A model generated the notes under the pieces. That model was not told the origin of the DNA and did not search any database. It saw only the letters and a program-made list of their open reading frames with translations. This document shows, piece by piece, positions 3,557 to 18,851 of a DNA stretch of 64,000 nt. Made by a program: the position numbers and the translations under genes. The DNA comes from Thiohalorhabdus sp. Cl-TMA (GTDB lineage Bacteria > Pseudomonadota > Gammaproteobacteria > Thiohalorhabdales > Thiohalorhabdaceae): positions 372,001 to 436,000 of the forward strand of contig NZ_JBGUAW010000001.1 in assembly GCF_041821045.1 (NCBI RefSeq), given 5' to 3'. Each line of letters opens with the position of its first letter. The first letter of the stretch is position 1.

Positions 3557-3573
3557 TTGGCAAGCCGTTTGCT
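3557..3573 (+). promoter_or_regulatory. Sigma-54 promoter of the mgd-gmaS-mgs operon
   Basis: TTGGCAAGCCGTTTGCT matches the -24/-12 consensus (YTGGCACG-N4-TTGCW) with a single departure. The invariant GG (3559-3560) and GC (3571-3572) are exactly ten bases apart. The expected start site is near 3584, giving a leader of about 75 bases before mgdA. Confidence 0.75.
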
Positions 3574-3658: not shown

Positions 3659-4897
3659 ATGCCCTGGCGGCTGCTTAAGCGGGGTCTGGTGGGGGGGCGC
3701 GAGCCCCGCTTCTTCCCGGAGGAGCGGCCGCTCAAGTCCCGCTACGACGTGGTGATCATCGGCGGCGGCGGGCACGGGCTGGCCTGCGCCTACTACCTGG
3801 CCAAGGAGCACGGCATCACCGACGTGGCCGTGCTGGAGCAGGGGTATCTCGGCGGCGGCAACACGGGGCGCAACACCACCATCGTGCGCTCCAATTACCT
3901 GACGCCCGAAGGGGTGCGGTTCTACGACACCAGCCGGCGCCTGTTCGAGGACCTCTCCGGCGAGCTGGACATCAACCTGTTCTACTCCACCCGGGGCCAC
4001 TACACCCTCGCCCATTCCGACGGCGCCCTACGCACCATGCGCTGGCGGGCGGAGGTGAACAAGCACCACGGCGTCGACAGCCGGGTGGTGGACCGGACGG
4101 CCATCGCCGCCGACGTGCCCTTTCTGGACCTGGACTGCGGCGGCCGGAGCCCGGTGCAGGGTGCCCTCTACCATGCCCCCGGCGCGGTGGCCCGCCACGA
4201 CGCGGTGGCCTGGGGCTTCGGCCGCGGCGCGGCCAACCGGGGCGTGGAACTCCATCAGCAGACCCGGGTCACCGGGATCCGTACCGAGGGTGGCCGGGTG
4301 GCCGGGGTTTCCACCAGCCGGGGCGACCTCGAATGCGGGGCGGTGGTGTCCGCGGCGGCCGGCTCCACGCCGCGCATCACCGACATGGTGGGCCTGCCCA
4401 CGCCCGTCCGCGTCTTTCCCCTACAGGCCTGCGTGAGCGAGCCGGTGAAGCCCTTCCTGGACACCATCGTCGTTTCCGGAAGCCTGCACGTGTACGTGAG
4501 CCAGTCGTCCCGGGGCGAGCTGGTGATGGGCTCCGCCGTGGACCCGGCGGTACTCCACTCGACGCGCTCCTCCTTCGAGTTCGTGGAGGGGCTGGCCGAC
4601 CGGCTGCTCGACCTCTTCCCCTTCGCCGCGCGCCTGCGGCTCATGCGCCAGTGGGCGGGCATGGCCGACATGACACCGGATTTCGCCCCGGTCATGGGCA
4701 CCACGCCCGTGGCGGGCTTCTACCTGGACGGCGGCTGGGGCACCTGGGGCTTCAAGGCCACACCGGCGAGCGGCATGACCATGGCCTGGACCGTTGCCAA
4801 CGGACGCAATCACGAGCTCATCGAGCCCTTCCGCCTCTCCCGCTTCGACGATCTGCGCCTGGTGGGCGAGCGCGGCGCGGCCTCGGTGGGGCACTAG
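3659..4897 (+). CDS. mgdA: N-methylglutamate dehydrogenase subunit A (SoxB-like flavoprotein)
   Basis: A 412-residue FAD-dependent oxidoreductase of the sarcosine oxidase beta family. The dinucleotide motif VVIIGGGGHGLACAYYLA lies near residues 30-47. The stretch ARHDAVAWGF is typical of heterotetrameric sarcosine oxidase beta subunits, as is the C-terminal GGWGTWGFKATP. The heterotetramer oxidises N-methylglutamate to glutamate and passes the C1 unit to tetrahydrofolate. By family alone it could be sarcosine oxidase; linkage to gmaS and mgsABC decides the call. The ATG at 3659 follows GGAGG by nine bases. It is the first gene of an eight-gene run behind a sigma-54-like promoter. Confidence 0.9.
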   Translation: MPWRLLKRGLVGGREPRFFPEERPLKSRYDVVIIGGGGHGLACAYYLAKEHGITDVAVLEQGYLGGGNTGRNTTIVRSNYLTPEGVRFYDTSRRLFEDLSGELDINLFYSTRGHYTLAHSDGALRTMRWRAEVNKHHGVDSRVVDRTAIAADVPFLDLDCGGRSPVQGALYHAPGAVARHDAVAWGFGRGAANRGVELHQQTRVTGIRTEGGRVAGVSTSRGDLECGAVVSAAAGSTPRITDMVGLPTPVRVFPLQACVSEPVKPFLDTIVVSGSLHVYVSQSSRGELVMGSAVDPAVLHSTRSSFEFVEGLADRLLDLFPFAARLRLMRQWAGMADMTPDFAPVMGTTPVAGFYLDGGWGTWGFKATPASGMTMAWTVANGRNHELIEPFRLSRFDDLRLVGERGAASVGH

Positions 4898-4906
4898 GAG
4901 GCTGCC

Positions 4907-5173
4907 ATGAGATTGATCGAAGTCTTCGGCCTCGGCAAGCGGCCGGCGAGCGAGCTCGATTACGGCGGCGAGGCGCGGCCGCCTTCCGGGGAAACCGAGA
5001 CGGGGTCCATTGGTACCAGGGTATTCCCCGGCAGCGGCGGTCCCGGCGTCCGCAGGGAGTGGTGGTTCCACCGTCCCACTGGGCGGTGGCTGGTCTTCGA
5101 GCGGGATACCGGCACGGACCGGTTCCTGCGCCAGATCCCCCTCGCGGAGGTGCGGCGCCATGCTCCGGCTTAG
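4907..5173 (+). CDS. mgdB: N-methylglutamate dehydrogenase subunit B (SoxD-like)
   Basis: An 88-residue protein matching the small delta subunit of heterotetrameric sarcosine oxidase in length, order and pattern. SoxD family members hold a zinc through cysteines, but no cysteine or CxxC motif is visible in this copy, which is worth noting. The conserved tail WWFHRPTGRWLVFERDTGT is clear. It starts nine bases after mgdA with AGGAGGCTGCC before the ATG, and its last 14 bases overlap the start of mgdC, so the subunits are translationally coupled. Confidence 0.85.
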   Translation: MRLIEVFGLGKRPASELDYGGEARPPSGETETGSIGTRVFPGSGGPGVRREWWFHRPTGRWLVFERDTGTDRFLRQIPLAEVRRHAPA

Positions 5174-8057
5174 CAGGAAGCCCCGCGAGTGGCTGGACCG
5201 GACGCGGACCGTGCGCTTCACCCTGGAGGGGCGCACCTACCGGGCCCACCCCGGCGATACCGTCACCTCCGCCCTGTGGGCCAACGGCGTGCGGGTGCTC
5301 GGGCGAAGCTTCAAGTACCACCGCCCGCGTGGCGTGCTTTCCGCGGCCAACCACGACGTCAACGCCCTCTATCAGAACGCCGGGGCCACCCATATCCGCG
5401 CCGACGTGACCCCCGTGCGTGAGGGAATGGTCCTGGAGCCGGTGAACGTCGGCGGCAGCCTGGCCAGCGACCGCAACCGGATCCTCGACCGGCTGGGCCG
5501 GTTCCTGCCGGTGGGCTTCTACTACAAGTCCCTGCACCGGCCCAAGTGGCTGTTCCCGTTCTGGGAGCGGCTGATCCGCGGTAAGGCGGGACTGGGCGAG
5601 GTGGATACGGGCTGGCCGGCGGACCGTGCCCCCAAGGCCCACGCCTTCTGCGAGGTGCTGGTGGTGGGCGCCGGGCCAGCCGGGCTGGCCGCCGCCCTCC
5701 ATGCGGGGGATGCAGGGGCGGAGGTGCTGCTGGTGGACGAGAATCCCCACGTCGGCGGCAGCCTGGATTACGAGTGGGTGGGCACCACCGTGGCCGACCG
5801 CGAGCGGGCGCGGCTCGTGGAGCGGGTGAGCGCGCATCCGCGGGTCACGGTGCGGACCTCCAGCGTGGCCCTTGGCCATTACGCCGATCATCAGGTCCCG
5901 GTGGCCGGCCCGGAGGGCATCAGCAAGGTCCGGGCGGAGGCGGTGGTGCTGGCCACCGGCGTGCTGGAGCAGCCCGCGGTGTTCCGCAACAACGACCTGC
6001 CCGGGGTCATGCTGGCCTCCGGCGGCATGCTGCTCCTGCACCGGTTCGGGGTGGCGCCCGGCCTGCGGCCGGTACTGCTGGTGGCTAATGCCGAGGGCTA
6101 CCGCGCCGCCCTGGCCTTGATCGCCGCCGGCCTGCCCCCGGAGGCGGTGCTCGACTGGCGGGTATGCGGCGAGCCGGAACGGGGGCTGCCCAAGACCCTT
6201 CAGAACTTCGGCGTGGAGGTGCGGGAGGGCTGGACGGTCCGCGAAGCTCACGGCAGGGAGGCGCTTGCCGGCGTCACCGCCGTCCCCGCGAACCGTGCCG
6301 GGGCCCCGGGCGCGCGCCAGGGGGTCCGGATCGACTGCGACGCCCTGCTCATGAGCGTGGGCTGGGCGCCCGCCGGCCACCTGCTCTATCAGGCGGGCGG
6401 TACCTTCTCCTACGACCACAGCCTCCACCAGCCGGTCCCCCATCGGACCCCGCACGGCGTCTATCCCGCCGGACGGCTCAACGGCGTGTTCGTCCTGTCG
6501 GAGCAGCTGGCGGATGGCCGCCACGCGGCGGAGCGGGCCCTGGCGGCGCGAACCGGGGCACCCGACCCGGGCGTCTCCCCGTACCGGGCGGCGGAGCCGC
6601 ATTCCCACCCCTGGCCCATCGTGCCCCATCGCCGAGGCCGCGACTTCGTGGATTTCGACGAGGACCTCCAGTTGAAGGACCTGGAGCAGGCGGCCGCCGA
6701 GGGTTTCGACAACATCGAGCTGCTCAAGCGCTTCTCCACCGTGGGCATGGGGCCGAGCCAGGGCAAGCACGCCAACATGAACGCCATCCGCATCCTGGCC
6801 CGTTGGCGCGGCCAGGGAATCGACGAGACGGGGACCACCACCGCCCGCCCCGTTTACCACCCGGTGCCCCTCGGCCACGTCGCCGGACGGCGGCTGCGGC
6901 CGTGGTGCACCGGCCCCTTCCAGGCGTTCCACGAGGCGCAGGGGGCCGCCTTCATGGAGGCGGGACCCTGGCTGCGCCCGGATTTCTACGGTCCCCGGAA
7001 GGCCGAGGCGGTGGCCGCCGAGGTGGCGGCGGTTCGCCAAGGCGTGGGCCTCATGGACCTCTCCCCCCTGGGCAAGATCGAGGTGCTCGGCCCGGATGCG
7101 GCCCGCTTGCTGGAAAGCGCCTACACCTCGCGCCTCGCCGACCTGCGGTCGGGACGCAGCCGCTACGCGGTGCTCACGGACGAGACCGGGGTGGTGCTGG
7201 ATGACGGCGTCGTGGGCCGGCTGGCCGCGGATCGTTTCTACGTCACCGCCACCACCAGCCACGCCGAGGCCACCACCAAGCTGCTGCTGCGCCACGCGGC
7301 GGAGCGCGGCCTGGACGCGCACGTGGTGCCCCGCACCGGCCAGCTGGCCGCCCTGAGCGTGGCCGGTCCCGGCAGCCGCGAGCTGCTGCAGCCCTTCACC
7401 GACCTCCCCCTGCACGAGCCGGATTTTCCCCGCCAGGGGATCGCCGAGGCCCGGGTGGCGGGGCATGCCGCCCACCTTCTGCGCTCGGGATTCGTGGGCG
7501 AGGTGGCCTTCGAGGTCCACTTGGCGCCCGAGGCCGCCCGGACGGTCTGGATGGCGCTGTGGCGCGCCGGGGGGGAGGCGGGCGGCATCCGGGCCTTCGG
7601 CGTCCAGGCCCAGCGGGTGCTGCGCCTGGAGAAGGGACATCTGCTCGTGGGCCAGGACACGGACGGGCTCACCACCCCCTTCGAGGCGGGCCTGGGCGGC
7701 CTGGTCCACCTGGACAAGCCCGCCTTCACGGGCCGGGAGAGCCTGGCGCTGCTGAAGGAGCGCCGGGAGCGCCGGCTGGTGGGCTTCACCCTGCCGCCCG
7801 ACGCGCCGCTTCCCGAGGAATGCCATCTGGTGATCGTGGACGGTGCCATCGCCGGCCGCGTCACCAGCATCGCTTTCAGCCCCACCCTCGGCCACCCCAT
7901 CGGCCTGGCCATGGTGGATGCCGAGCTCGCCGACAGCGGGGCGCCCCTCCCCATCCGCCTGGATGACGGCGGCTTGGTGACCGCCCGCCCCGCCCCGAAA
8001 ACCTTTTACGACCCCCAGGGCCGCTGCCTGGGGGCCCACGCCGAGGAGGCCTGCTGA
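5160..8057 (+). CDS. mgdC: N-methylglutamate dehydrogenase subunit C (SoxA-like)
   Basis: A 965-residue alpha subunit. The N-terminal region to about residue 110 is the ferredoxin-like Fer2_4 fold seen in SoxA (FTLEGRTYRAHPGDTVTSAL). A pyridine nucleotide/FAD Rossmann motif follows (VLVVGAGPAGLAAALHAG, near residue 165). The last 370 residues form the GcvT-like folate-binding half, where the methyl-derived carbon is joined to tetrahydrofolate. The ATG at 5160 was taken over a longer upstream frame because the protein then begins where SoxA proteins begin, and the 14-base overlap with mgdB is natural for this operon. The stop shares one base with the mgdD start. Confidence 0.92.
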   Translation: MLRLSRKPREWLDRTRTVRFTLEGRTYRAHPGDTVTSALWANGVRVLGRSFKYHRPRGVLSAANHDVNALYQNAGATHIRADVTPVREGMVLEPVNVGGSLASDRNRILDRLGRFLPVGFYYKSLHRPKWLFPFWERLIRGKAGLGEVDTGWPADRAPKAHAFCEVLVVGAGPAGLAAALHAGDAGAEVLLVDENPHVGGSLDYEWVGTTVADRERARLVERVSAHPRVTVRTSSVALGHYADHQVPVAGPEGISKVRAEAVVLATGVLEQPAVFRNNDLPGVMLASGGMLLLHRFGVAPGLRPVLLVANAEGYRAALALIAAGLPPEAVLDWRVCGEPERGLPKTLQNFGVEVREGWTVREAHGREALAGVTAVPANRAGAPGARQGVRIDCDALLMSVGWAPAGHLLYQAGGTFSYDHSLHQPVPHRTPHGVYPAGRLNGVFVLSEQLADGRHAAERALAARTGAPDPGVSPYRAAEPHSHPWPIVPHRRGRDFVDFDEDLQLKDLEQAAAEGFDNIELLKRFSTVGMGPSQGKHANMNAIRILARWRGQGIDETGTTTARPVYHPVPLGHVAGRRLRPWCTGPFQAFHEAQGAAFMEAGPWLRPDFYGPRKAEAVAAEVAAVRQGVGLMDLSPLGKIEVLGPDAARLLESAYTSRLADLRSGRSRYAVLTDETGVVLDDGVVGRLAADRFYVTATTSHAEATTKLLLRHAAERGLDAHVVPRTGQLAALSVAGPGSRELLQPFTDLPLHEPDFPRQGIAEARVAGHAAHLLRSGFVGEVAFEVHLAPEAARTVWMALWRAGGEAGGIRAFGVQAQRVLRLEKGHLLVGQDTDGLTTPFEAGLGGLVHLDKPAFTGRESLALLKERRERRLVGFTLPPDAPLPEECHLVIVDGAIAGRVTSIAFSPTLGHPIGLAMVDAELADSGAPLPIRLDDGGLVTARPAPKTFYDPQGRCLGAHAEEAC

Positions 8058-8575
8058 TGTCCGAAGAGCTCGCGGCACCGCTGGTGCTGGAATCCCTTCC
8101 CCACGCCGCGCTGCGCGAAGTGGTTGGTCCGGGCGCCGAACGGGTCCTGCGCATGGCGGGCTGGCCGCAACCGGACGCCGAGCTCACCGCCCTTTCCAAC
8201 GAGCGCGGCCTGGTGGCGCGGACCGGCGTCAACGGCTACCTGCTGCTGCGCTGGGACGGCGAGGAGCCCGGCCTGGGCAAGGGCGCCTCGCCGCCCTGGG
8301 TGCTGACCCGGTCGGACCGGGCCCTGTGGCTGCTCGGCGACGATCCGGCCGGTGTGCTGCGCGAGGTCTGCGAGCACGACTTTCGCGGCTTCCCGCTCGA
8401 CGGTTGGCTGATGACGGAGGTGGCGGGTGTTGCCGCCTGGTGCGCCCGGCCCCGGTCCCGCCCGGAGGGCCTGCTGCTCGGCTGCGACCCGTCCCACGGC
8501 GACTATTTCCGGAACACCCTGCAGGGCGTGATCGACGACCGGAACGGCTCCGGCGCCCTACCCGCTGACCCCTAG
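8057..8575 (+). CDS. mgdD: N-methylglutamate dehydrogenase subunit D (SoxG-like)
   Basis: A 172-residue gamma subunit, related in fold to the N-terminal part of GcvT. It completes the B-D-A-G order of heterotetrameric sarcosine oxidase operons. The ATG overlaps the mgdC stop by one base (TGATG). Sequence conservation in SoxG proteins is low, so the call leans on length, position and motifs such as LLRWDG and DCEH-like spacing near the C-terminal third. It has no catalytic role known of its own and is structural in the complex. Confidence 0.85.
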
Positions 8576-8585
8576 GAGGTGGACC

Positions 8586-9920
8586 ATGCTGTCCGATGAG
8601 CTGCAAAGCTTTCTCACCGACAACGATATCGAGTACGTCCTCGCCCAGTTCGTGGATATCCACGGCGTGGCCAAGACCAAGGCCGTTCCCGCCCAGTGCC
8701 TGGAGACCATCCTGGAGGACGGCGCCGGCTTCGCCGGGTTCGCCGTCTGGGGCCTGGGACTGGAGCCGCACGACCCCGATTTCATGGCCGTGGGCGATCC
8801 CGCGACGCTGACCCGGGTGCCCTGGCAGCCGGGCTACGCCCGCATCGCCTGTACCGGCCACGTCAACGGCGCGCCCCATGCCTGCGACTCCCGCTTCGTC
8901 CTGCAGCAGCAGCTCGCCCGGCTGGCGGAGCGCGGCTGGCACCTGAATACCGGGGTGGAGCCGGAGTTCGCCCTGCTGAAGCGGGACGAGTCGGGGAGGC
9001 TGCGGCCCGTGGACGAGAGCGACGACCTCACCAAGCCCTGCTACGACTACAAGGGCCTGTCGCGGTCGCGGGTCTTCCTGGAGCGCCTGGTGGGCAATCT
9101 CCGGGAGGTGGGCTTCGATGTCTACCAGATCGACCACGAGGACGCCAACGGCCAGTTCGAGATCAACTACACCTACAGCGACGCCCTCACCTCCGCCGAC
9201 CGCTTCACCTTCCTGCGCATGGGGGCGGGGGAGATTGCCGAGGACCTGGGCATGATCTGCTCCTTCATGCCCAAGCCGGACGGCAGCCGCACGGGCAGCG
9301 GCATGCACTTCCACCTCTCCGTGGAGGACGGGTCGGGCGCCGACCTGTTCCACGACGACGGCGACCCGCAGGGCATGGGGCTGTCCGAGACGGCCTACCA
9401 CTTCCTCGGCGGCCTGCTGGCCCACGCCCCCGCTCTGTGCGCCTTCGCCGCCCCCACCGTGAACTCCTACAAGCGGCTGGTGGTGGACGGCTCCGCCTCG
9501 GGGGCCACCTGGGCGCCGGCCTACATCACCTACGGCGACAACAACCGCTCGGCCATGGTGCGGGTGCCCTACGGGCGCCTGGAATTCCGGCTGCCCGATT
9601 CCGGCTGCAACCCCTACCTGGTCACCGCCGCCCTCATCGCCGCCGGCCTGGACGGTGTGGAGCGGCACCTGGATCCCGGCCCCGCCCAGAACGTCAACCT
9701 GTTCACGCTGAGCCCGGAGGAGCGCCGGGCCCAGGGCATCGAGCTGCTGCCCCAAAACCTCAACGAGGCGTTGGCGGCGCTGGAGGCGGACCCGCTGTTC
9801 GCCGAGCGGCTGGGCGACGGCATCGTCAACGAATTCCTCCGGGTCAAGGGCGCGGAGTGGACCGAATACAGCCGCCACGTGAGCGACTGGGAGCTGGCCC
9901 ACTACGCCGAGTTCTTCTAG
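8586..9920 (+). CDS. gmaS: Gamma-glutamylmethylamide synthetase
   Basis: A 444-residue glutamine synthetase-fold enzyme. GS signatures are visible: the beta-grasp N-terminus, VEPEFALL (metal site), [20 protein letters not shown], and VNSYKRL followed by [10 protein letters not shown]. In this pathway the enzyme ligates methylamine to glutamate with ATP, giving gamma-glutamylmethylamide. Members of this subfamily cluster with mgd and mgs genes, as here. It follows mgdD by ten bases with AGGAGGTGGACC before the ATG. A plain glutamine synthetase is less likely because of the context and the shorter, GlnT-like build. Confidence 0.9.
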
Positions 9921-9947
9921 GCCCGGAGCGCGAAAGGAGCGAGACGC

Positions 9948-10844
9948 ATGTGTGGAATTGCCGGCCTTTTCCTGAAGAACCGGGCGCTGGAGCCGGAGCT
10001 GGGGGCCCTGTACACCCCCATGCTCACGGCCATGACGGGGCGGGGTCCCGACAGCGCGGGCTTCGCCGTCTACGGCGACGAGGTGCCGGAGGACTGGGTG
10101 AAGCTCACCCTGCAGCATGCGGACCCGGATTTCCCCTGGGAGGAGATCGCCGAAGGGCTGGAGCGGGACCTGGATGTCCCGGTGAAGTGGTTCCGCAACG
10201 CCGACGTGGCGGTGCTGAAGACCGGCGCCGGGGAGGCGGCGGTGCGGTCCTGGCTGGAGGATCGGCAGCCCGGGATCGAGGTCATGAGCGTCGGCCGCGG
10301 CATCGAGATCCTCAAGGGGGTGGGCCTTCCCGGGGAGATCGCCGAGCGCTACGGCCTGGCCCGCATGCAGGGCAGCCACGTGGTGGGCCATACCCGCATG
10401 GCCACCGAGAGCGCCGTGGACCTGGCCGGGAGCCATCCCTTCTCCACGGGGCGGGACCTGTGCCTGGTGCACAACGGCTCCCTCTCCAATCACAACCGTC
10501 TGCGGGATTCCCTGGAGCGCCGGGGGCTGTCCTTCGCCACCTACAACGATTCCGAGGTGGCCGCCGGCTACCTCACCTGGCGGCTCGCGGAGGGGGCGGA
10601 CCTCCAGGAGGCCCTGGAAACGGCCCTCACCGACCTGGACGGGTTCTACACCTTCACGGTGGGCACCCGGGACGGCTTCGCCGTACTCCGCGACCCCATC
10701 GCCTGCAAGCCCGCGGTGCTCGCCGAGACCGGGGACTACGTGGCCATGGCCTCGGAATACCAGGCCCTGGCGCACCTGCCGGGCATCGAGGCCGGCGAGG
10801 TCTGGGAGCCGGAACCGGGGCGGGTTTATGCCTGGCACCGCTAG
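9948..10844 (+). CDS. mgsA: N-methylglutamate synthase subunit A (class II glutamine amidotransferase)
   Basis: A 298-residue protein starting MCGIAGLF. After methionine removal Cys2 would be the N-terminal nucleophile of the Ntn-hydrolase fold. Further GATase II landmarks are RGPDSAG, HTRMATES and HNGSLSNHN. In N-methylglutamate synthase this subunit acts on gamma-glutamylmethylamide, releasing methylamine for channelling to the FMN subunit. It starts 27 bases after gmaS behind GAAAGGAGCGAGACGC. The three mgs genes together resemble glutamate synthase split into separate subunits. Confidence 0.9.
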   Translation: MCGIAGLFLKNRALEPELGALYTPMLTAMTGRGPDSAGFAVYGDEVPEDWVKLTLQHADPDFPWEEIAEGLERDLDVPVKWFRNADVAVLKTGAGEAAVRSWLEDRQPGIEVMSVGRGIEILKGVGLPGEIAERYGLARMQGSHVVGHTRMATESAVDLAGSHPFSTGRDLCLVHNGSLSNHNRLRDSLERRGLSFATYNDSEVAAGYLTWRLAEGADLQEALETALTDLDGFYTFTVGTRDGFAVLRDPIACKPAVLAETGDYVAMASEYQALAHLPGIEAGEVWEPEPGRVYAWHR

Positions 10845-10866
10845 CGGAACAGCAGAGGAGAAGGCA

Positions 10867-11574
10867 ATGAAGACCATTAGTCTGGCGGAGACCCCGGTGC
10901 GCGAGCTGAATCGCCAGCTCCAGGAGCAGGCCGCCCATTTCCGGGAGCCCGATTGGCGGATCACCGATCCCGGCGGCCGGCACGCCCTGGCCGTGGGCCT
11001 CGACGCTCCCCTGAACGTCACCATCGACGGCCACGTGGGCTACTACTGCGCCGGCATGAACCAGCAGGCGCACGTCACCATCAACGGCATGGCCGGCGTG
11101 GGCGTGGCCGAGAACATGATGTCGGGTAGCGTTCGGGTGCGCGGCAACGCCTCGCAGTCCGCCGGCGCCACCGCCCACGGCGGGCTCCTGGTGGTGGAGG
11201 GGGATGCCTCCGCCCGCTGCGGCATCGCCATGAAGGGCGTGGACATCGTGGTGGGTGGCAGCGTCGGCCATCTGAGCGCCTTCATGGGTCAGGCCGGCCG
11301 CCTGGTGGTATGCGGCGACGCCGGCGAGGCGCTGGGCGACTCGCTCTACGAGGTGGACATCTACGTGCGCGGGTCCGTGCGGTCGCTGGGTGCCGACTGC
11401 GAGGAGAAGTCCATGGGCCCGGAGCACCGGGCCGCCCTGGCAGAGCTGCTGGAGGCGGCCGGCATGGATCACGATCCGGCCGGATTCCGCCGTTACGGCT
11501 CCGCCCGCGCACTCTACAACTTCCGGGTGGACAACGCCTTCGCCGGCTACGGCGAGGAGGAAATCGAATCATGA
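10867..11574 (+). CDS. mgsB: N-methylglutamate synthase subunit B (GXGXG protein)
   Basis: A 235-residue protein built from the right-handed beta-helix repeats of the glutamate synthase GXGXG domain. The repeats are seen in GVGVAENMMSGSVRVRG, GGLLVVEGDA and VDIVVGGSVG. It has no known active site and serves as structural core between the amidotransferase and FMN subunits. The ATG at 10867 follows AGAGGAGAAGGCA; a longer frame exists but would overlap mgsA by 17 bases. Its stop overlaps the mgsC start (ATGA). Confidence 0.88.
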   Translation: MKTISLAETPVRELNRQLQEQAAHFREPDWRITDPGGRHALAVGLDAPLNVTIDGHVGYYCAGMNQQAHVTINGMAGVGVAENMMSGSVRVRGNASQSAGATAHGGLLVVEGDASARCGIAMKGVDIVVGGSVGHLSAFMGQAGRLVVCGDAGEALGDSLYEVDIYVRGSVRSLGADCEEKSMGPEHRAALAELLEAAGMDHDPAGFRRYGSARALYNFRVDNAFAGYGEEEIES

Positions 11575-12896
11575 GCGAGCAGCACAAGCGGCCCGGCATG
11601 CGGGAGTCGGCGAGCTTCGACCGCGACGTCATCGCCGAGATCCAGCGCGCCGCCGATACGGGCATCTACGACATCCGGGGCTTCGGCGCCAAGCGCGCCG
11701 TGCCGCACTTCGATGACCTGCTGTTCCTGGGGGCCAGCATGTCGCGCTATCCCCTGGAGGGCTACCGGGAGCGCTGCGCCACGGACGTGACCCTCGGCAC
11801 CCGCTATGCCTCCCAACCCCTGGAGCTGGACATCCCGGTGACCATCGCCGGCATGAGCTTCGGGTCCCTCTCCGCGCAGGCCAAGGAGGCCCTGGGACGG
11901 GGCGCCAGCGTCGTGGGCACCTCCACCACAACGGGGGACGGCGGCATGACCGCCGAGGAGCGCGGCCAGTCGGACAAGCTGGTCTACCAGTACCTGCCGT
12001 CGCGCTACGGCATGAATCCCGACGACCTGCGCAAGGCCGACGCCATCGAGGTGGTGCTCGGCCAGGGCGCCAAGCCCGGCGGCGGGGGCATGCTCATGGG
12101 CCAGAAGATCAGCGACCGCGTGGCGGAGATGCGCACCCTGCCGAAGGGTGTGGACCAGCGCAGCGCCTGCCGACATCCCGACTGGACCGGCCCCGACGAC
12201 CTCGCCATCAAGATCGAGGAGCTGCGCGAGATCACCGGCGGCGAGAAGCCCATCTACATCAAGATCGGCGCCACCCGCACCTACTACGACGTGAAGCTGG
12301 CGGTGAAGGCGGGCGCCGACGTGGTGGTGCTCGACGGCATGCAGGGCGGTACGGCGGCCACCCAGGAGGTGTTCATCGAGCATGTGGGCATCCCGCTTCT
12401 GAGCGCCCTGCCCCAGGCGGTGCAGGCCCTGCAGGAGCTGGACATGCACCGCAAGGTGCAGCTCGTGGTTTCCGGGGGTATCCGCAGTGGCGCGGATGTG
12501 GCCAAGGCCATGGCCCTCGGCGCCGATGCGGTCTCCATCGGCACCGCCGCGCTCATCGCTTTGGGCTGCAACCATCCCCGCTGGGAGGCGGAGTACCGGA
12601 CGCTGGGCACGGCGGCGGGCTTCTACGACGACTACCACGAGGGCCGGGACCCTGCCGGCATCAGCACTCAGGATCCGGCCCTGGCCCGGCGCCTGGATCC
12701 CGAGGCGGGCGGCCGCCGCCTGGCCAATTACCTCCGGGTGCTGACCATGGAGGCGCAGACGCTGGCCCGGGCGTGCGGCAAGTCCCATCTGCGCAATCTG
12801 GAGCCCCAGGACCTGGTGGCCCTCAATGTGGAGGCCGCCGCCATGGCGCGGGTGCCCCTGGCGGGTACGGGCTGGGTGCCCGGGGTCGGCGCGTAG
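11571..12896 (+). CDS. mgsC: N-methylglutamate synthase subunit C (FMN-binding glutamate synthase-like)
   Basis: A 441-residue FMN-binding TIM-barrel of the glutamate synthase family. Barrel landmarks are GMSFGSLSAQAKEALG, PGGGGMLMGQKIS, YIKIGAT and VVSGGIRSGADVAKAMALGA. It condenses methylamine with 2-oxoglutarate and reduces the product to N-methylglutamate. Only one cysteine follows the barrel (ALGC), so the three-cysteine [3Fe-4S] motif of GltB is not evident in my reading. The start is fixed by the ATGA overlap with mgsB. It is the last gene of the operon; a 310-base gap to amt follows. Confidence 0.9.
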   Translation: MSEQHKRPGMRESASFDRDVIAEIQRAADTGIYDIRGFGAKRAVPHFDDLLFLGASMSRYPLEGYRERCATDVTLGTRYASQPLELDIPVTIAGMSFGSLSAQAKEALGRGASVVGTSTTTGDGGMTAEERGQSDKLVYQYLPSRYGMNPDDLRKADAIEVVLGQGAKPGGGGMLMGQKISDRVAEMRTLPKGVDQRSACRHPDWTGPDDLAIKIEELREITGGEKPIYIKIGATRTYYDVKLAVKAGADVVVLDGMQGGTAATQEVFIEHVGIPLLSALPQAVQALQELDMHRKVQLVVSGGIRSGADVAKAMALGADAVSIGTAALIALGCNHPRWEAEYRTLGTAAGFYDDYHEGRDPAGISTQDPALARRLDPEAGGRRLANYLRVLTMEAQTLARACGKSHLRNLEPQDLVALNVEAAAMARVPLAGTGWVPGVGA

Positions 12897-12912: not shown

Positions 12913-12929
12913 TGCACCAGATTGGGGCG
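12913..12929 (+). promoter_or_regulatory. Putative NtrC site upstream of amt
   Basis: TGCACCA-GAT-TGGGGCG matches the NtrC consensus TGCACYA-NNN-TGGTGCA at all defined positions but two. It lies 16 bases after the mgsC stop and about 130 bases before the predicted amt start site. Confidence 0.55.
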
Positions 12930-13025: not shown

Positions 13026-13043
13026 TTGGTACGAGAATTTCAT
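13026..13043 (+). promoter_or_regulatory. Degenerate sigma-54 promoter candidate of amt
   Basis: TTGGTACGAGAATTTCA has a good -24 element and correct spacing, but the -12 GC is replaced by TC. The upstream NtrC-like site makes it credible. The expected leader to amt is about 155 bases. The rest of the 310-base gap (12897-13206) holds no other feature I can support. Confidence 0.4.
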
Positions 13044-15171: not shown

Positions 15172-16299
15172 CTACGGGGAGTCGAGGCGGAGGGCCCCTT
15201 CCGCATCCAGGGTGGCGGCGGTGCCAAGCTGCTTGCCGAGCGTGGTGATCAGTTCCGCCAGCCAGCGGGCGTCCCCGGGAGCCGCATCCTCCACCCGGAA
15301 GCGGCGGATCCGCATGGGCCGCATGCGGAGGTCCAGGAGCCGGCCACTGCGCGGGTCGAGGTCCGGGAAGTACATGAGCGTCAGGTCGTCCCGGAAGGGA
15401 CCGTGTCCGCCGATGCCCTCGTAGTCGTTCAGGAAATCGCCGCAGCCGTAGAGAATCAGCCGGTCGCGGTACAGCTCCATGCCCCGCACGTGGTGGGAGG
15501 AATGGCCGTGGATCAGGTCCACCCCCGCCTCGTCGATGAGGGCCCGGGCCAGGGTCCGCTGCGCCTCGGGGATGGTGTAGCCCCAGTTGGAGCCCCAGTG
15601 GATGGAGGCCACCACCAGGTCCCCCGGGCCCTTGATGGCCTGCACGCCCGCCGCCACCTCCGCCGCGGCCCGGGAGGTCCGCTCCGGGAGCAGCCAGACG
15701 CCGGCTTGGCGGCTCGCCGCCGCCCATTGTGCGGGGATGCCGCTGGTATCCGAGCCCATGGAAAGGAATATCACCCGGCCCTTCCCCGGCACCTTCAGGA
15801 TCGCTGGTGCTCGGGCGGCCGCTAGGTTCCGCCCGGCCCCCGCGGAGGCCACGCCCGCCCGCTCCAGGGCGTCCAGGGTTTCCGCCAGGCCTGCGTACCC
15901 CCAGTCGAGCACGTGGTTGTTGGCCAGGGCGCATGCGTCCAGGCTCGCGGCTTGGAGCAGGCGGGCGTTGCGCGGGTGCATGCGGTAGTGGATGCCCTTA
16001 CCGGGCCAGTGGTCCTCGCTGCCGGTGATCGCCGTTTCCAGGTTGGCGAGGTGCCGGTCCGGGGCTAGGGCCGCCAGCCAGCGCAGGGCGTCCCCCCACA
16101 CGTAGTCCTCCGCCACACCGCGCGGAAGGGGGCCGCTCTCCCGCTCGGCCAGCTCCACGTAGTCGCGGGCATCGCGGACATAGGGCTCGTGCAGGTGCGG
16201 CGGGCAATGCCAGGGCATGATCTGGTCGATGCCGCGACCGGTCATCAGGTCGCCGCAGAGGAACAGGCGGATTCGGTCCGGGGCTGCATGCGGGGTCAT
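15172..16299 (-). CDS. CapA-family (PGA_cap) metallophosphatase-like protein
   Basis: A 375-residue protein of the CapA/PGA_cap family, with the calcineurin-like motifs FLCGDLM, LANLETA, ALANNHVLDWG, SIHWG, HGHSSHH and YGCGDFLNDY. Family members take part in poly-gamma-glutamate capsule making in Bacillus, but many lone copies have no known job. No signal peptide or membrane anchor is visible, and no capB/capC/pgsE partner is in the window, so a capsule role should not be assumed. The ATG at 16299 follows GGAGGGCCCCGC. It converges on the GNAT gene. Confidence 0.85.
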   Translation of the reverse strand: MTPHAAPDRIRLFLCGDLMTGRGIDQIMPWHCPPHLHEPYVRDARDYVELAERESGPLPRGVAEDYVWGDALRWLAALAPDRHLANLETAITGSEDHWPGKGIHYRMHPRNARLLQAASLDACALANNHVLDWGYAGLAETLDALERAGVASAGAGRNLAAARAPAILKVPGKGRVIFLSMGSDTSGIPAQWAAASRQAGVWLLPERTSRAAAEVAAGVQAIKGPGDLVVASIHWGSNWGYTIPEAQRTLARALIDEAGVDLIHGHSSHHVRGMELYRDRLILYGCGDFLNDYEGIGGHGPFRDDLTLMYFPDLDPRSGRLLDLRMRPMRIRRFRVEDAAPGDARWLAELITTLGKQLGTAATLDAEGALRLDSP

Positions 16300-16470
16300 G
16301 CGGGGCCCTCCGCGAGGCGGGGTACGAATCCATTGCACACCCTGGCCGCGGGGCGGCCAAGATGGTCCGCGCCCCGATCCCCGTGCCTTTACCTGCCGGC
16401 GCAAAAAACGGCCCGGAACAGGGGATGCGCTCCCTGAACCGGACCGCCGGAGGAGAAGGTGCAGGGGCCG

Positions 16471-17091
16471 TCAGGCGGACAGGGGGATCATTCCGGCCTC
16501 CCGGATGTGCTCGGCCACCGCGTCGAGGCCCGTGCCGGTGCGGAAATCGGTGAGGACGTAGGGCCGGTCGCCGCGCGCGGCGCCGACATCCCGGCTCAGA
16601 TCCGCCATGGAGGCCCCCATCATGGGCGCCATGTCGGCCTGGTTGACCACCAGCAGATCCGCGCGGGACAGGGCGGCGCCCTCCTCCCGCCGGAGGTCCT
16701 GGCCGAGCGAGGCATCCACCACGTAGAGGGTGAGGTCGGAAAGCTCGCGGCTGAAGGCGGCCCCGGGGTTTTGGTTGCCGAACTCCACCAGGACCAGGTC
16801 CAGTCCGGGGAAGCGCATGGACAGCTCGCCCACCGCGTTCAGGGTCATTGAGGCGCTCCTGCCGGCGGTGGAGCGCGGGAAGTCGCCCAGCTCCACGCCG
16901 ATGACCCGTTCCTCGGGCAGTGTCCCGCTGGCGATCAGGAATTCGGCGTCCTGCCCGGTGGCGCGGTCGTTGGTGACCACGCCGATGCTGAGCTCGTCGC
17001 CGAGCCGCTTGCACAGGGCGCTCAGGAGCGCCGTCTTGCCGGAGCCGGCGGGTCCGCCGATGCCGACGCGCAGGGGCCTTTGGGTCTCCAT
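16471..17091 (-). CDS. UreG-like SIMIBI GTPase lacking the nickel-binding CPH motif
   Basis: A 206-residue P-loop protein of the UreG/HypB family. The P-loop is GGPAGSGKT (residues 12-20), switch I resembles UreG (TNDRATGQDAEFL), and VIGVE and LVEFGNQNPGAAFSRELSDL align with UreG regions. Two hallmark sites differ. The UreG nickel motif GGCPH is GDFPR here (residues 69-73), so the metal cysteine and histidine are gone. The G4 motif NKxD is NQAD (150-153). No urease genes are in the window. Two ATGs are possible; 17091 has AGGGA at six bases, while 17097 has almost no spacing. A sigma-54-like promoter lies just upstream. The function is unknown and probably not classical urease maturation. Confidence 0.82.
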   Translation of the reverse strand: METQRPLRVGIGGPAGSGKTALLSALCKRLGDELSIGVVTNDRATGQDAEFLIASGTLPEERVIGVELGDFPRSTAGRSASMTLNAVGELSMRFPGLDLVLVEFGNQNPGAAFSRELSDLTLYVVDASLGQDLRREEGAALSRADLLVVNQADMAPMMGASMADLSRDVGAARGDRPYVLTDFRTGTGLDAVAEHIREAGMIPLSA

Positions 17092-17144
17092 GGCCATTCC
17101 CTCTTGGCTCGCTAAAGGAAGAGATGCGGTCTTATCCCCGAAAT

Positions 17145-17161
17145 AGCAAGGGGTGTGCCAG
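17145..17161 (-). promoter_or_regulatory. Sigma-54 promoter of the UreG-like gene
   Basis: Read on the minus strand, CTGGCACACCCCTTGCT fits the -24/-12 consensus, with GG and GC ten bases apart. The expected start site is near 17134, 40-45 bases before the gene. TGGTGC half sites lie at 17276-17281 and 17307-17312, but no full NtrC palindrome was found. Confidence 0.7.
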
Positions 17162-17317
17162 AGCGGCGAAGGGCGGCTTATTGAGTCGGAAGGGCGCCTT
17201 TTCAAGAGGTTGCGTGCATTCCGGCAAGGGGGTCGGCGGCTGGAAGGGTCGTGGGGCGCGGTGGGGGGCCCAGGCTGGTGCACCGGGCCGGCCGGCCGTG
17301 CCGACTTGGTGCGCTGC

Positions 17318-18481
17318 TCAGGATGCGCCCGGAGACGATGCGCCGGAGAGCTGGTCGTGGACCGCGGACTCCACCTCGTGGACGGGGGCCAGCACGCCGT
17401 TACCGGAGTCACGCAGCATGCGCTGGCGCAGGGCGTCCAGGTACGCCGCCAGGCGCTTGCGGAGCTTGGGGCGCAGCTCCGCCTCCGTGCGGCTGTAGTC
17501 GTAGACGTCCCAGGCCAGGAAGCCCACCAGCGCGGCGGCGCCCAGCACCCGGCCGCCGAGCCGGCCCCCGGTCCGCGCGGCCCGCCGGCCGCCCGTGCGG
17601 GCGACGCGGCCACGCAGGGCGCTGCCCACCAGGGCCGTCTCTCCCGCGGCCGCCCCGGCGCGGGGCGCCCAGCGCATGGCGGCGGCACCCACCCGGCCCA
17701 TGGCCCGGCTGCCGCGCAGCACCACGGCGGTGGTTCCGGCCGCGCCGAAGGTCACCAGGCCCTTGAGGGTGGTGGGCACCTGCTCATCCTGGGTGCGCGC
17801 CTGGGCCAGCTGCAGGCCGATGTGGGAGAGGTGCTGCTGCCAGTCGTCGCGGGGGACCTGGTACTCGGCGGGGATCTCCCGAAGGCGGCTGCGGGCGTGC
17901 TCCAGGTAGACGCGCAGGGATTCGCGGGCAATGGCCTCCATGCGCATCTGGGTCTCGCCCGGGGGCATGACCTGCACGGCGAAGGCGTCGCGGAAATCCG
18001 CCATCATGGTGTCCTGGGCGCCGGCGCCGCCGACCCAATCGGCGGCCAGATAGCCCAGGGCCTTGAGGTCCCGCCACTGCTGGTTCCAGAAGCCGAAATA
18101 CCAGGGCAGGAAGTCCTCCTCCACTCGCTGCATGAGCTCCGCCTGCCAGGCATCGAGCTCTTGCCGGGCGCGCTGCTCCGCCTTGCGCCGGGCCTCCAGG
18201 AATACCGCGCGGATCTCGGCGTCCACGCTGGACCAGTCCACGGGGGCGGCCACGGTGAAGGTACGGTCCTCCTCCAGCCAGGCGAAGGGGGCGCCGTCCT
18301 CGCCGATGTACCGGCTGAGGAGCGCCGCCGTGGCGAGCAGCACCAACAGGAATATGGAGCCCCACTTCGCGGCACGCCAGAAGCGGCCGAGGAAATAGCG
18401 GTCGGGGTCCCGGGCCGGCTTCCGGGGCGTGCCGGAAGGCTGGATGCGGGTGTGCGGCTGGACAATGGGCGGACGGGCCAT
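17318..18481 (-). CDS. Hypothetical membrane protein, unknown function
   Basis: A 387-residue protein that I do not recognise. A membrane segment lies near residues 36-56 (WGSIFLLVLLATAALLS). A long, charged, probably extracytoplasmic stretch of about 190 residues follows, rich in Trp, Glu and Arg with amphipathic helices (around DFLPWYFGFWNQQWRDL). Then come a glycine/alanine/arginine-rich segment with GR repeats near residues 250-310 and a second hydrophobic segment (VLGAAALVGFLAWDVYDY). The ATG at 18481 was chosen because AGGAGGGACCC precedes it. The gene stands alone between the UreG-like gene and the divergent proQ. No catalytic motif is visible. Confidence 0.75.
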   Translation of the reverse strand: MARPPIVQPHTRIQPSGTPRKPARDPDRYFLGRFWRAAKWGSIFLLVLLATAALLSRYIGEDGAPFAWLEEDRTFTVAAPVDWSSVDAEIRAVFLEARRKAEQRARQELDAWQAELMQRVEEDFLPWYFGFWNQQWRDLKALGYLAADWVGGAGAQDTMMADFRDAFAVQVMPPGETQMRMEAIARESLRVYLEHARSRLREIPAEYQVPRDDWQQHLSHIGLQLAQARTQDEQVPTTLKGLVTFGAAGTTAVVLRGSRAMGRVGAAAMRWAPRAGAAAGETALVGSALRGRVARTGGRRAARTGGRLGGRVLGAAALVGFLAWDVYDYSRTEAELRPKLRKRLAAYLDALRQRMLRDSGNGVLAPVHEVESAVHDQLSGASSPGAS

Positions 18482-18851
18482 GGGTCCCTCCTGGACAGGG
18501 GACATCTCCCTTTAGACAACATAAACGGGGACAAAATCAAGGGGGCGATCCCGGTTTCGGCGGCTACAGGGCTTCGCTGGTTGGAACGAGGTCCTCGCAA
18601 TGGTGCCCAAGCGTACCGGGGACAGTCCGTGGCAAGCACCCGGGGTTCGGGGGCGTGCCCTAAATCGTCCGATACCGGTACACTGCCGCTGGCTGTGCTG
18701 GGGCGTTCCGGGGGTATGCCCATATCGGGGTAGGGGGTTTCCCTTATTTTCCTGGGGGGGTATCGCGGCCACCCTCTCGCCGGAGCAGGGGGCGGCGGTG
18801 GGCCGAAACGCACCCGCCGCCGAAAAAAGGGGACAGCGGAAAGAAGGAAGC
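18482..18851. other. 370-base divergent intergenic region
   Basis: The gap between the hypothetical membrane gene and proQ. A -10-like TACACT occurs at 18679-18684, but no good -35 is paired with it. I see no gene, terminator or clear repeat here. Confidence 0.3.

Follow-up and report, generated by a model that had tools for sequence, protein, structure and literature searches.

Within the window (the whole stretch of Thiohalorhabdus sp. Cl-TMA DNA analysed, 64,000 nucleotides), a gene for a UreG-like protein lies between a gene for a PGA_cap (CapA-like) protein and one for a hypothetical protein without a Pfam match (Table 1). The stop codon of the UreG-like reading frame occupies positions 16471-16473. 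An alternative ATG at 17097 would extend the product to 208 amino acids; however, the start at 17091 is likelier because a GAGGGA Shine-Dalgarno-like stretch lies ahead of it and the UreG of a congener (genome G001) starts at the same place.

Table 1. Positions in the window of the UreG-like gene, its motifs and the surrounding features
Feature	Position	Strand	Remarks
UreG-like protein gene	16474..17091	-	206 aa with the likelier start; PF02492 and TIGR00101 profiles
GDFPR replacing nickel-binding GGCPH	16873..16887	-	residues 71-75
NQAD replacing NKxD (guanine-specificity motif)	16633..16644	-	residues 152-155
Sigma-54 (-24/-12) promoter-like site TGGCACACCCCTTGCT	17145..17160	-	exact match, pattern search
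Probable intrinsic terminator	16403..16445	-	interrupted G+C-rich hairpin, then TTTTTT; RNA fold z = -2.3
Segment of ~975 bases (gene, promoter, terminator) missing from G001	16342..17316		local alignments and reading by eye; edges approximate
Flanking gene, PGA_cap (CapA-like) protein	15172..16296	-	orthologue adjoins that of the other flank in G001
Flanking gene, hypothetical protein	17318..18505	-	orthologue in G001
Sigma-54-like site TGGCAAGCCGTTTGCT	3558-3573	+	1 mismatch; ~85 bases before soxB-like gene
N-methylglutamate (methylamine) pathway cluster	3659-12896	+	complete-looking
NtrC-like sequence TGCACCAGATTGGGGCG	12913-12929	+	2 mismatches; ~280 bases before ammonium transporter gene

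Profile searches with the protein recovered PF02492 at 71.8 bits, over its cut-off, and the NCBIfam UreG profile TIGR00101 at 190.7 bits, under the curated equivalog cut-off of 204.2; the congener UreG scores 338.6 bits with the latter profile. The protein is a full-length single domain, of which residues 7-204 align without gaps to the Klebsiella UreG (5xkt; E 1e-54), and a single-sequence AlphaFold2 prediction gave a model too poor to use (mean pLDDT 53). The protein resembles the known UreGs (TIGR00101; Klebsiella 5xkt, Helicobacter 4hi0) in whole-length homology, size, an intact P-loop (GGPAGSGKT at residue 14) and the Walker B glutamate (LVLVE, residue 105), with 43-58% identity to most canonical members. 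The original prediction had described a UreG frame in which GDFPR and NQAD stand for the nickel-binding and NKxD motifs, and this was confirmed. Two further departures were absent from its list: GNQN is found where UreG has GGDN, and the PRKGGPG loop is replaced. Unlike UreG, the protein has no CPH motif, and its only cysteine and only histidine lie next to the P-loop helix and near the C-terminus, respectively. It shares with the wider G3E group of P-loop GTPases (UreG, HypB, MeaB and COG0523/CobW) the PF02492 match and the Walker B glutamate, but differs from it in the NQAD motif, as an intact NKXD helps define that group (PMC2770081). Neither the GCxCC feature of COG0523 nor the histidine stretch of HypB is present.

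Promoter, terminator and nitrogen context

The promoter-like site upstream of the UreG-like gene (TGGCAC-N5-TTGCT) lies 47-53 bases ahead of the start codon. It is one of 8 exact sigma-54 sites that the genome (3.74 Mb) contains, whereas a reversed control pattern matches only once. RpoN is encoded in the same genome, and from the combination of this protein with the -24/-12 element the gene is predicted to form a sigma-54-dependent transcription unit. A simple terminator scan, the rule of which demands a short loop and an uninterrupted stem, returned no match at the downstream hairpin. Judged by sequence, the gene would constitute a monocistronic unit between the sigma-54 site and the terminator.

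The promoter had been foreseen in the original prediction, which further counted three sigma-54 units within 14 kb and linked them to nitrogen metabolism; these two additional claims were not confirmed. Besides the exact site, there are one site with a single mismatch, ahead of the methylamine cluster, and one at 13027 before the ammonium transporter gene (amt), with 2 mismatches and without the essential GC. Both are at chance level, with 1.4 matches of up to 1 mismatch expected in the window. The methylamine cluster, which codes for soxB/soxD/soxA-like dehydrogenase subunits, a type III glutamine synthetase (gmaS-like), an amidotransferase, and GXGXG and glutamate-synthase-like subunits, lies together with the ammonium transporter gene 1.9-13 kb from the UreG-like gene, on the opposite strand. 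Such a cluster would fit a halophilic gammaproteobacterium resembling Thiohalorhabdus. Upstream of the UreG-like gene, a search that allowed up to 2 mismatches detected no NtrC-type site; in the window as a whole, 7 such sequences are seen against 4.4 expected, including one ahead of the ammonium transporter gene (Table 1). Another of the exact sigma-54 sites is situated 47 bases before a gene for a PEP-CTERM protein (L089 1704-2633, G000 contig C14), which means that the sigma-54 sites of this genome are not nitrogen-specific. Sigma-54 sites ahead of PEP-CTERM genes have been documented (PMC1569441), and the present one suggests that the genome has a sigma-54 regulon of the exosortase type. 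Comparison of the 8 exact sites yielded no convincing common enhancer motif. A nitrogen-related role of the UreG-like gene is possible.

Relatives, urease and the empty site in the congener

As a chaperone UreG serves a single purpose, and it normally occurs together with urease. Profile searches of the window's genome (99.2% complete) for urease alpha and UreF retrieved neither, consistent with the gene having been described as lacking urease. Both are present in the congener, where the urease cluster also includes urease gamma, UreE and UreG and is located near nirB, cysG and an ammonium transporter gene. When 7.9 kb of this amt-urease region was searched at the DNA level against the window's genome, the only match was at the UreG-like gene; UreD and UreE were covered through this search rather than by profile. 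The stand-alone sigma-54 unit and the missing partners further distinguish the gene from ureG proper, and no accessory partner or metalloenzyme gene adjoins it.

A UreG homologue (E <= 1e-15) occurs in 81 of the 369 genomes searched from the class, and the CPH motif, NKx[DE], GGDN and the PRK-x-GP loop are kept in all 83 other UreG homologues of the class. A DNA pattern coding for GDFPR together with GNxN matched the gene itself alone across 398 genomes of the phylum. Two scans of an 84,980-species collection, one of them with this pattern, likewise revealed no homologue with GDFPR and NQAD; the pattern gave 11 matches there, none of them a UreG. The odd-motif form is a singleton within the collections searched, and we rejected a GDFPR/NQAD family since no second member was found at any of these three levels. 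The undescribed GTPase or ATPase branch of the original prediction is accordingly not supported, and the nearest relative of the protein is the ordinary urease UreG of the congener. A second, divergent type of UreG (L151 and L152), with GACPH and PRKRGPG and 38-40% identical to the window protein, was observed in two genomes of the class, in addition to an ordinary UreG in each. A phage origin was rejected, as phage-labelled records gave only more distant homologues (~41%) and viral contigs none; so was a plasmid origin, for which 157 records were all below 60% identity, many of the top ones being annotated as ureG.

The protein is 58% identical to the congener UreG, while its identity to the other UreGs averages 51% and does not exceed 53%; the congener UreG is itself 76% identical to the others, which share 78% among themselves. 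Seven rare residues are common to the protein and the congener UreG, compared with 0-3 for any other UreG. In a tree the protein is placed next to the congener UreG on a very long branch, which weakens the tree as evidence taken alone. At synonymous sites the two genes have diverged (NG86 dS 0.62) to nearly the same extent as the flanking orthologues (0.47 and 0.57), which indicates that the split of the two genes is about as old as that of the species. Both flanking genes are adjacent in the congener, with no UreG-like gene between them. The edges of the missing segment rest on local alignments, a global alignment of the empty site being uninformative on the exact breakpoints. The third genome (G002) carries the orthologues of the two flanks on separate contigs, with another gene next to that for CapA; the order to which these genomes belong is represented in the collection by one family, one genus and three species. 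The empty site would fit either an insertion in the present genome or a deletion in the congener. Together, these comparisons mark the gene as what appears to be a genus-level derivative of ureG, at a new site in a urease-free genome.

Selection, decay and possible function

Of 103 positions that are invariant in UreG, 41 differ in the protein. These losses are concentrated in the nickel and PRKGGPG loops and amount to 1 of 13 in the P-loop, 10 of 12 in the nickel loop (70-81) and 8 of 11 in the region 131-146. A regional permutation test gave p 0.004 with regions drawn after the alignment was seen, and a runs test on kept and lost positions showed no clustering (p 0.50). Of ~80 assignable amino-acid changes, 65 fall on its own branch and 15 on that of the congener UreG. 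With dN at 0.30 (NG86), the dN/dS of its own branch is ~0.8, a rough estimate that assumes synonymous changes to be shared equally; the branch is strongly relaxed.

These figures bear on the possibility that the gene is a decaying remnant, namely a stray ureG copy with little or no function, left after urease loss, whose frame is not yet broken. In addition to the extensive losses and the high dN/dS, this account gains from the disappearance of the urease partners and from the single, isolated copy without a detectable orthologue, and selection might have ended only recently. As the original prediction supposed, the gene is not visibly decayed, having neither an indel nor a stop across 206 codons after some 100 substitutions. 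The absence of stops as such was rejected as proof of function, given that, in this GC-rich code, stop-free frames arose in 23-60% of neutral simulations, and about a third of all neutral simulations keep an open frame too; the lack of any indel nonetheless speaks against decay. So do the replacements, whose mean BLOSUM62 score of 0.0 makes them more conservative than those simulated under neutrality (-0.64, p about 0.001), and the GC3 of 0.93, which is like that of resident genes, whereas neutral drift predicts 0.80-0.87. Second codon positions also change less than first positions (p 0.004-0.018). The nearly untouched P-loop beside a vanished nickel loop, and the presence of an exact sigma-54 site and a terminator, likewise sit poorly with decay, which we regard as possible but doubtful. 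Because the replacements are more conservative and GC3 is higher than in neutral simulations, we prefer, with moderate confidence, the view that the gene is maintained and codes for a repurposed NTP-binding protein to that of simple decay.

Two further explanations would retain a chaperone function. The protein might still supply another enzyme with a metal, possibly one other than nickel, by means of different ligands, in keeping with its retained P-loop and Walker B glutamate and with its membership in the G3E group, the characterized members of which serve metallocenter assembly (PMC2770081). However, the loss of the metal loop, the presence of just one cysteine and one histidine, and the lack of an adjacent accessory partner or metalloenzyme gene make this improbable. 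Even less probable is the undescribed GTPase or ATPase chaperone family in nitrogen metabolism advanced by the original prediction: the sigma-54 site and the nearby methylamine cluster and ammonium transporter gene are compatible with it, but there is no second member, the closest relative belongs to urease, no NtrC-like site lies upstream, and a PEP-CTERM gene also stands behind a sigma-54 site in this genome.

On balance, we consider it probable that the locus derives, at the level of the genus, from an ordinary urease ureG and now stands by itself elsewhere on the chromosome of a species without urease, where the sigma-54 promoter, the gene and the terminator make up a self-contained unit coding for a repurposed NTP-binding protein. 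In known UreG, GTP drives dimerization such that two CPH motifs join around one nickel ion, and UreF and UreD bring the dimer to urease (PMC10121161, PMC7408563). The present protein would still form the UreG-type P-loop fold and could bind a nucleotide through its intact P-loop; nickel binding, by contrast, would be lost, so that neither a nickel-bridged GTP dimer nor docking on UreF/UreD is to be expected, and strict guanine specificity would be lost too. It would be made only upon firing of a sigma-54 activator and might then act on some partner as a repurposed NTP-binding protein. Since the protein lacks the nickel ligands, the loop around them, NKxD and the usual partners but keeps its P-loop, we infer a nucleotide-binding domain freed from nickel and urease. 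Going further, one may tentatively entertain a neofunctionalized UreG with altered nucleotide choice, in which a nickel-insertion GTPase outlived its enzyme and turned, within one genus, into a metal-free nucleotide switch under sigma-54 control.

The protein is probably an isolated relic that has acquired a different use, and not the founder of a new protein family. If the gene is only decaying, it would be a caution against taking motif loss for a new family; if it is maintained, it would offer a small and recent example of an accessory GTPase that has taken on a new task, which can be dated against the ordinary UreG of the congener.
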